From Woeseiaceae bacterium (lineage in GTDB: Bacteria > Pseudomonadota > Gammaproteobacteria > Steroidobacterales > Woeseiaceae), in NCBI GenBank assembly GCA_030066625.1, contig JASJBG010000007.1, forward strand, positions 1-64,000: a stretch of 64,000 bases of DNA. Direction: 5' to 3'. Positions 21,472 through 52,832 of this stretch are shown here, in pieces. The notes below the pieces were generated by a model that worked only from the letters and a program-made list of their open reading frames with translations, was not told the DNA's origin and made no database searches. Made by a program: the position numbers and the translations under genes. The first letter of the stretch is position 1. Each line of letters opens with the position of its first letter.

Positions 21472-21488
21472 TTGGCACGGCGGTTGCA
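21472..21488 (+). promoter_or_regulatory. Sigma-54 (RpoN) promoter
   Basis: TTGGCAC-GGCGG-TTGCA matches the sigma-54 consensus (TGGCAC-N5-TTGCA) exactly, with the GG and GC elements correctly spaced. Transcription should start near 21499 and run rightward into the 33-aa ORF and structured RNA. It is accompanied by two upstream palindromes and a divergent sigma-54 activator gene. Confidence 0.88.
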
Positions 21489-21495
21489 ACGGTGA

Positions 21496-21524
21496 CAGTG
21501 CCGGGGTAATCCGGCAGTGTTTTT
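21496..21524 (+). promoter_or_regulatory. Hairpin plus U5 at the predicted transcript 5' end
   Basis: TGCCGG (21499-21504) pairs with CCGGCA (21511-21516), loop GGTAAT, followed by GTG and five T's. It begins almost exactly at the predicted start site. It could be a 5'-protecting stem, a promoter-proximal attenuator or an Hfq-type U-tract. A second short stem AGGCC/GGCCT follows at 21527-21545, just before the ribosome-binding site. Confidence 0.45.
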
Positions 21525-21564
21525 CAAGGCCGCTTGGGCAGGCCTCTTCAGAAGGATTTGAGAG

Positions 21565-21666
21565 ATGTACAACCGTAACCCCAATGTTCAGAACGGTCTC
21601 GCGCTCGCAGGCGCACTGATCGTCCTGTTCACCCTGATGTTCGCCAGCTCGGCTGTGCTTGCATGA
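21565..21666 (+). CDS. 33-aa hydrophobic peptide under sigma-54 control
   Basis: Too short for the ORF track. ATG at 21565 with AAGGA about 10 bases upstream; TGA at 21664. The product has a polar N-terminus (MYNRNPNVQNG) and one hydrophobic helix (LALAGALIVLFTLMFASSAV) ending in LA, so it is either a single-span membrane peptide or a cleaved signal-like peptide. It is the first ORF after the sigma-54 promoter. I do not recognise a family. Coding status is supported by start, ribosome-binding site and TM-like composition, not by conservation, which I cannot test. Confidence 0.65.
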   Translation: MYNRNPNVQNGLALAGALIVLFTLMFASSAVLA

Positions 21667-21955
21667 GGAACGTGTCCGGGCGCAGCTTGAAAATGTTGCG
21701 CCCGGCCTGATTTCTGGCTCGAGAGGCTTAGGACCTCTCATGAGACCCCCAGCGGTGTGGGTCGACCCGGGTTTCTCTCCCCCCGATCGCCCGGGAAGAA
21801 CCGCACCGCAATGCCGGATGGGAATCCGGCGAAAACGGACCGGGATGGTCCGGCGGCAGCTCCCCTGCCGTATCCCTGGGCGCCGGAGACCGCTCCGTGT
21901 CGGACGGCCCGCTGACTCGATCATCGAATTCAGCTCTCCGGCGCCTTCTTTTTTA
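21667..21955 (+). ncRNA. Candidate structured RNA downstream of the 33-aa ORF
   Basis: About 285 bases without an ORF but full of perfect stems: CCGGGCGCA/TGCGCCCGG (21676-21705), GAGAGG/CCTCTC (21721-21739), GCGGTG/CACCGC (21752-21809) enclosing CCCGGG/CCCGGG, GCCGGAT-GGGA-ATCCGGC (21813-21830, GNRA loop), CGGACC/GGTCCG (21836-21852) and CGGCAG/CTGCCG (21854-21870), then a terminator. Three hairpin loops contain GGA, the core of CsrA/RsmA binding sites. It could be an sRNA released from, or co-transcribed with, the peptide mRNA. It matches no RNA family I can name. Confidence 0.5.
21879..21953 (+). terminator. Intrinsic terminator of the sigma-54 transcript
   Basis: GGCGCCGGAGA (21879-21889) pairs perfectly with TCTCCGGCGCC (21935-21945), and is followed by TTCTTTTTT. 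The stem is 11 bp, but the 45-nt loop is longer than usual and contains its own small stem. It ends right at the stop codon of the convergent PGPGW gene. Confidence 0.65.
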
Positions 21956-22228
21956 GTCCGGCTCCGTTGCCCGCTCGCGATGCGCCTCCGCCCGTTTTGC
22001 GCGGCCGGTCGAGTTGTTGTTGCTGATCCCTTCGCGCACCCTGCGCAACCAGTAACGCGCCCACGTGAACTCGATGCTCAGTATGGCGAGCCCGAGCGGG
22101 ATCATGACCAGCGCGGGTCCCGGCGTTACGATCATGATGACGCCCAGCAGCAGTACCGTCAGGCCGACGACCGCAACGACGATGCGGCGCGCCGCCTTGT
22201 ACGTAATGTGAATCACGCGTCGGATCAC
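21953..22228 (-). CDS. PGPGW-family small transmembrane protein
   Basis: A 91-aa protein with a basic N-terminus and two hydrophobic stretches, VVAVVGLTVLLLGVIMIVTP and ALVMIPLGLAILSI, joined by the TPGPA motif that defines the PGPGW family. The C-terminus is charged and cytosolic. Function unknown. It starts 9 bp after the dienelactone-hydrolase-like lipoprotein stop, so the two likely form an operon. Confidence 0.75.
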   Translation of the reverse strand: MIRRVIHITYKAARRIVVAVVGLTVLLLGVIMIVTPGPALVMIPLGLAILSIEFTWARYWLRRVREGISNNNSTGRAKRAEAHRERATEPD

Positions 22229-52513: not shown

Positions 52514-52740
52514 TTTTGTTCCCTCGGAGCATCGCCCGCGGCGACGTTCCTGCTTACGTTAAACGGGTTTGGGTGAGCAATGATCCGCCGGCCATTCGGG
52601 CATGTCAACGCAGGCCCGAACTCGACCGAAAACGGCGCGCCGGACAGGATCGCTGCGGGCGTTTTGACAATATATTTTTTTCTGGGTTCGCCGCGTTGAC
52701 AGCCCCCCGGCGCAGTGCAACGATGCGGGAACGTTGGATA
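52514..52740. promoter_or_regulatory. Divergent intergenic region upstream of the riboswitch
   Basis: Separates the lipoprotein operon from the riboswitch-FAD oxidase unit. It holds an AT-rich block, TTGACAATATATTTTTTT (52664-52681), whose TTGACA has no good -10 partner at normal spacing on the plus strand; the same block offers TATATT for the minus strand. A second TTGACA (52696-52701) also lacks a strong -10. I see no gene here. Confidence 0.45.
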
Positions 52741-52832
52741 ACGGCACACCTGTCCGAAAGGCAGGGTCGCAAAGCCACCGGTCTAAGGAATCGCTCAGGG
52801 AACGGGCGTCTAGGACAGCGGGGCCACCGGAG
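52741..52832 (+). promoter_or_regulatory. Cyclic-di-GMP-I (GEMM) riboswitch
   Basis: The sequence carries the GEMM-I hallmarks in order: P1b stem CCTGTCC-GAAA-GGCAGG (52749-52765), GTCGCAAAGCC (52766-52776), the tetraloop-receptor arm ACCGGTCTAAGG, then the second stem-loop and AGGACAGCGGGGCCACC (52812-52828). This matches the Vibrio Vc2 aptamer pattern GACGCAAAGCC...CCTAA...AGGTAGCGGGG. The aptamer ends in CCGG, directly joined to the GGAG (52829-52832) ribosome-binding site 6 bases before the ATG. Control is therefore probably translational; I see no terminator. Confidence 0.93.

Follow-up and report, generated by a model that had tools for sequence, protein, structure and literature searches.

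The locus and its promoter

Within the window, by which we mean the whole 64,000-nt stretch of Woeseiaceae DNA analysed here, a sigma-54 promoter lies between a divergent regulatory gene and a short open reading frame that is followed by a structured RNA (Table 1). The promoter is a perfect consensus element, and a -24/-12 element stands in the corresponding position at each of the 66 same-genus loci that make up our ortholog set (one further locus, L071, was left out as its promoter call looked wrong). Counting C21487 of TGGCACGGCGGTTGC as -12 places +1 at 21499; purines are commonest one base later across the orthologs, so the predicted +1 is best given as 21498–21500. The sigma-54 start named in the original prediction is supported, and so is the hairpin lying flush with it.

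Table 1. Features of the sigma-54 locus, in window coordinates.
Feature	Position	Strand	Basis
Enhancer-binding protein gene, PAS-PAS-AAA+(sigma-54)-HTH, ~605 aa	19544–21361	-	Pfam matches
Predicted operator dyad 1, TACGGAATTCCGTAA	21373–21387	.	equivalent site upstream of promoter in orthologs
Predicted operator dyad 2 (imperfect), ACGGCTTTTCGTAA	21396–21409	.	recurs in orthologs
Predicted operator dyad 3, AACGGAATTCCGTAA	21412–21426	.	motif search of assembly; recurs in orthologs
Sigma-54 promoter TGGCACGGCGGTTGC, -26 to -12	21473–21487	+	perfect consensus
5'-terminal hairpin TGCCGG-GGTAAT-CCGGCA, TGCCGGGGTAATCCGGCA	21499–21516	+	shuffles; paired changes in L002
U5 tract TTTTT	21520–21524	+	sequence
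Second leader stem AGGCCGC-UUGG-GC-A-GGCCU, loop region CGCUUGGGC	21527–21545	+	folding
Shine-Dalgarno AAGGA	21552–21556	+	sequence
Micro-ORF, 33 aa, MYNRNPNVQNGLALAGALIVLFTLMFASSAVLA, one hydrophobic helix	21565–21666	+	ORF conservation, codon-position bias
Stem P1, loop UUUCUCUCCCCCCGAUCG	21752–21809	+	covariation; C-run motif in 58/61 loci
Stem P2, GGGA-containing loop	21813–21830	+	all 6 pairs changed on both sides
Stem P3, variable loop	21837–21851	+	compensatory changes
Stem P4, C-rich loop GCUCCCC (CCCCCC in most)	21854–21870	+	at least 4 C in 61/66 loci
Branched intrinsic terminator and U tract	21879–21954	+	covarying helices 5–8; part of model R1

The gene that faces the promoter encodes an enhancer-binding protein (Sigma54_activat, 1e-71; PAS_9, 2e-23), whose start, ATG 21361, is kept in the orthologs and which reached no NCBIfam equivalog cut-off. 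Three predicted operator dyads occupy the interval between this activator gene and the promoter, and hold a fixed place in the orthologs. Across the assembly, which is about 89% complete, the operator motif occurs only at its own locus when at most one mismatch is allowed, and at two further places, each with two mismatches, when the limit is relaxed to two. The locus therefore has the parts of a sigma-54-dependent unit, namely a -24/-12 element together with an enhancer-binding protein and predicted upstream sites for it, and the gene for sigma-54 is present in the genome. We infer that the divergent PAS-type activator activates this promoter.

The transcript and its conservation

The predicted transcript carries a micro-ORF whose counterpart, a hydrophobic ORF of 30–108 codons starting 33–81 nt from +1, is found at 65 of the 66 same-genus loci. 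Changes in the micro-ORF fall on codon positions 1, 2 and 3 at 32, 17 and 51%, and neither Pfam nor NCBIfam returned a match. The 3' half, from about 21752 to 21954, is a structured RNA of four stems and a branched terminator. In an alignment that was not fitted to the structure beforehand, and from which the structure itself was derived, paired cells amount to 95.2% as against 89.3 ± 0.4 in shuffled alignments (30 sequences), and both-side changes occur in 23 of 46 pairs as against 11.4 ± 1.6, a signal that is destroyed when the partners are slid. The C-rich loops of P1 and P4 are conserved and the loops of P2 and P3 vary, so that the hairpins with loops of C4 or longer that characterize C-rich-loop sRNAs are found here; the P4 count is to be read as a recovery rate, because CCCC is already part of the P4 anchor by which the loci were located. 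No Rfam family was reached by the transcript, hits over 21490–21975 being weak and far below the gathering cut-off. The only Rfam pass in the window is a c-di-GMP-I riboswitch at 52733–52831 (+), with a score of 61.9 bits where the gathering cut-off is 35. On the other side of the terminator, a gene for a PGPGW-family membrane protein (21953–22228, -) converges on it, its stop overlapping the U tract.

With a model of the structured RNA (model R1), the RNA is recovered from 41 of the 196 genomes searched in the order, and almost all of these 41 are Woeseiaceae; matches beyond the family are weak with one exception, and three candidates from other families (L114–L116) had no promoter and were excluded from the counts. 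In the window's genome the RNA is single-copy, with one strong match to the model. The activator records likewise come mostly from Woeseiaceae metagenome bins, and at E ≤ 1e-30 the activator is present in only 3 of 369 genomes drawn from the class, which indicates that the system is narrow. Distant activator relatives, at 46–57% identity, occur in bins labelled Chromatiales, Rhodospirillales, Rheinheimera and others, labels that are themselves uncertain; there, a similar promoter and dyads precede RNAs with runs of C5–C9. At three loci (L191, L193 and L195) a sigma-54 promoter upstream of the activator is followed by an RNA that is compact, at about 165 nt, and contains CCCCCC runs, and in which no micro-ORF was detected. 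Judged from sequence, the module is conserved through the Woeseiaceae, and a small number of distant lineages share its architecture, in some cases lacking the ORF.

These three loci bear on the question of which part of the transcript matters. The near-universal presence of the ORF and its coding-type substitution pattern might be taken to mean that the micro-protein is the functional product, the structured RNA serving only to protect or terminate its mRNA; we regard this as unlikely, as at L191, L193 and L195 the promoter drives a C-rich-loop RNA with no detected micro-ORF, and as a 3' UTR with nothing but a protective role would have no need of the conserved C-rich loop sequences seen here. 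It is more doubtful again that the structured RNA is a CsrA sponge acting through GGA loops: GGA is frequent in the P2 and P3 loops and a csrA gene is present, but the GGA is not kept, the P3 loops including AUGA, ACGA, GUAA, GAAA and UUUU, so that conserved GGA loops are not what we observe.

The hairpin at the predicted transcription start

As originally predicted, TGCCGG/CCGGCA stands at the predicted +1 and is followed by TTTTT, and a second small stem precedes the ribosome-binding site. The first hairpin has a stability of -12.3 kcal/mol in 31 nt, which was equalled by 7 of 2000 dinucleotide shuffles, and a dyad of the form TGCCGG-N3-8-CCGGCA occurs once in the 64-kb window where 0.07 are expected. 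Shorter dyads, GCCGG-N3-8-CCGGC, number 15 on both strands of the window against 3.2 ± 1.8 expected. The nearest tested locus by activator distance, L002, begins with the hairpin GCCAG-UGA-CUGGC, again flush at the 5' end and here followed by U5 after a 6-nt spacer. Between the window and L002 the arms differ by paired changes (GCCGG/CCGGC to GCCAG/CTGGC) and the loop goes from 6 to 3 nt; the covariation of the hairpin consists of this single comparison, and the L002 hairpin taken alone is ordinary to weak, 121 of 2000 shuffles being equally stable. A flush hairpin with U5 is common to only these two same-genus genomes; L105, a member of the family with a single-contig genome, has no +1 hairpin. 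Together with L084 they form a clade of three (support 0.73), and L084 has the T5 without a strong hairpin; a T5 at +15 to +40 is present in L002, L052, L061 and L084.

Two extensions of this observation were considered and set aside. That +1 hairpins are a general trait of the genus was rejected, since they are not enriched over the orthologs, and P2 and the +1 hairpin have GCCGG/CCGGC arms in common, but strand exchange between them is by inspection not kept in L002. In another family, L112 has a separate 5'-flush hairpin (CAUGCCGG...CCGGCAUG / CATGCCGG...CCGGCATG, -14.4 kcal/mol), and as an independent parallel it is suggestive only.

The leader that contains these elements is, at the window's own locus, unremarkable as a whole (74 nt, z -1.5). 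Over the 66 orthologs, leaders are more structured than their shuffles: 40-nt segments starting from +1 to +11 have mean z scores of -1.1 to -1.2 (standard error about 0.17), and the signal is about zero for segments starting from about +20. The second stem thus sits in a part of the leader that is structured in many orthologs. A recurring loop motif, CGCTTGGG, lies upstream of the Shine-Dalgarno sequence both in this stem (21527–21545) and in the leaders of about ten orthologs. In the forms GCTTGGG, GTTTGGG or GCCTGGG it was counted 12 times in leaders (5.3 kb) as against once in 57.7 kb of upstream sequence, a count made after the motif had been seen and over orthologs that are related, and we treat its enrichment in leaders as a lead.

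What, then, does the +1 hairpin do? It could well be without any function, a near-neutral product of chance in a leader that is drifting, a reading to which we give considerable if lesser weight: 5'-terminal hairpins occur in 15 of the 66 orthologs as against 22 ± 3.6 when shuffled, and the sequence at the hairpin position is not conserved. Its strength in the window, rarely matched by the shuffles, argues the other way, as does the paired change that keeps the stem in L002 while the flanking leader has diverged. The original prediction had raised the possibility that most transcripts are aborted; that the hairpin and U5 form an attenuator, at which most RNAs would end some 26 nt into the transcript, fits a loose terminator consensus and is nonetheless disfavoured to the point of being highly improbable. 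The resemblance to a terminator is weak, because the tract has only five U and begins 3 nt past the stem, whereas an intrinsic terminator or attenuator would have the stem run directly into a U tract; in L002 the spacer is 6 nt, longer than an intrinsic terminator ought to allow; the module is conserved but for the hairpin, which nearly all orthologs lack; and the true terminator, which is strong and conserved, closes the transcript at 21954, 430 nt downstream. We give least credence to the idea that a repressor binds the dyad in the DNA and so occludes the start. A dimer could bind to a perfect 6-bp dyad at +1, and the L002 changes are symmetrical; against this, the window has the exact dyad once only, and its arms stand 6 bp apart in one genome and 3 bp apart in the other, a shift acceptable for an RNA hairpin but generally not for a dimer site.

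Stabilization of the 5' end, also among the roles first proposed, is plausible as a lineage-specific function, and we take it to be the likeliest one for the hairpin. Messenger RNAs of Escherichia coli are reportedly stabilized by 5'-terminal stem-loops (Emory et al. 1992; Bouvet and Belasco 1992; both cited in PMC3997798), and a hairpin flush with +1 would leave almost no unpaired 5' nucleotides and may thereby slow 5'-end-dependent decay (RppH, RNase E). As to possible binding of Hfq at this U5, the hfq gene is present in the genome, and the more usual Hfq site is a 3'-end hairpin with a U-rich tail. We conclude that the +1 hairpin is a real but minor feature, a lineage-specific addition to the module.

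A proposed working, and its relation to known systems

The transcript, and not its hairpin, is the interesting object, and it represents a new combination of known parts. On balance we favour the view that it is a conserved sigma-54 transcript, switched by the activator, that yields both a micro-protein and a trans-acting sRNA with C-rich loops, the +1 hairpin adding stability. The PAS domains would sense a signal, whereupon the activator, bound to the three dyads some 80–120 bp upstream, would open the sigma-54 promoter; 21499–21954 would then be made as one transcript of about 455 nt, predicted to encode a 33-aa, one-helix membrane peptide. The 3' half, as such or after processing, may act in trans as an sRNA whose C-rich loops would pair with G-rich sites near ribosome-binding sites, in the manner of sX13 and RepG. 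The promoter, operators, ORF, covarying RNA and their conservation are apparent at the level of sequence, whereas what the structured RNA does as an sRNA, how it does so, and the stabilizing role of the hairpin are inferred. Rather more speculatively, the operators found only at their own locus might define a regulon of one operon with a dual-function transcript (micro-protein and C-loop sRNA), in which the G-bearing leader loop CGCUUGGGC may pair with the transcript's own C-rich loops and so provide feedback.

Such a system is apparently undescribed: no earlier description was found in Rfam or in open full-text papers, and one may exist elsewhere. Woeseiaceae are common bacteria of marine sediments, and our literature search turned up no paper about small RNAs in them. 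An RNA that is single-copy, occurs across the family and has a dedicated sigma-54 activator would offer a first regulatory RNA for testing in these bacteria.

The individual parts have precedents. Among the closest in form is sX13 of Xanthomonas, which represses G-rich mRNAs through C-rich hairpin loops and, like the structured RNA described here, has several stable stems with C4–C5 apical loops (PMC3771888). It acts on G-rich motifs near translation starts (PMC3771888), as we propose by analogy for this RNA, but it is a free-standing sRNA, whereas the RNA here follows a sigma-54 promoter and a micro-ORF, and the likeness comes without evidence of homology. RepG of Helicobacter pylori, whose loop holds a UCCCCCU motif (described under the name HPnc5490; PMC3771888), regulates via a G-repeat in the leader of its target mRNA (PMC8295292); it belongs to an unrelated organism and gene context. 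For an sRNA drawn from a small-protein mRNA there is the CcaF1-CcsR1-4 transcript of Rhodobacter, whose 3' UTR is processed into sRNAs; CcaF1 is a DUF1127 RNA-binding protein (PMC8625941), whereas the peptide predicted here is hydrophobic, has a single helix and matches nothing in Pfam, and its ORF lies behind a sigma-54 promoter. GlnZ is similarly released from the 3' UTR of a sigma-54-dependent mRNA, that of glnA, but its parent gene is glutamine synthetase under NtrC, and the available part of the source describes no C-loop array (PMC9731577). The genes of the Qrr sRNAs, as proposed here, depend on sigma-54 together with an enhancer-binding protein for their activation, yet with another type of activator and in a quorum-sensing context (PMC10162802); the comparison made here covers their control. 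If the working proposed above is right, the C-rich-loop sRNAs known from Xanthomonas and Helicobacter would thereby be linked with control by sigma-54 and with a membrane micro-protein encoded on the same transcript.
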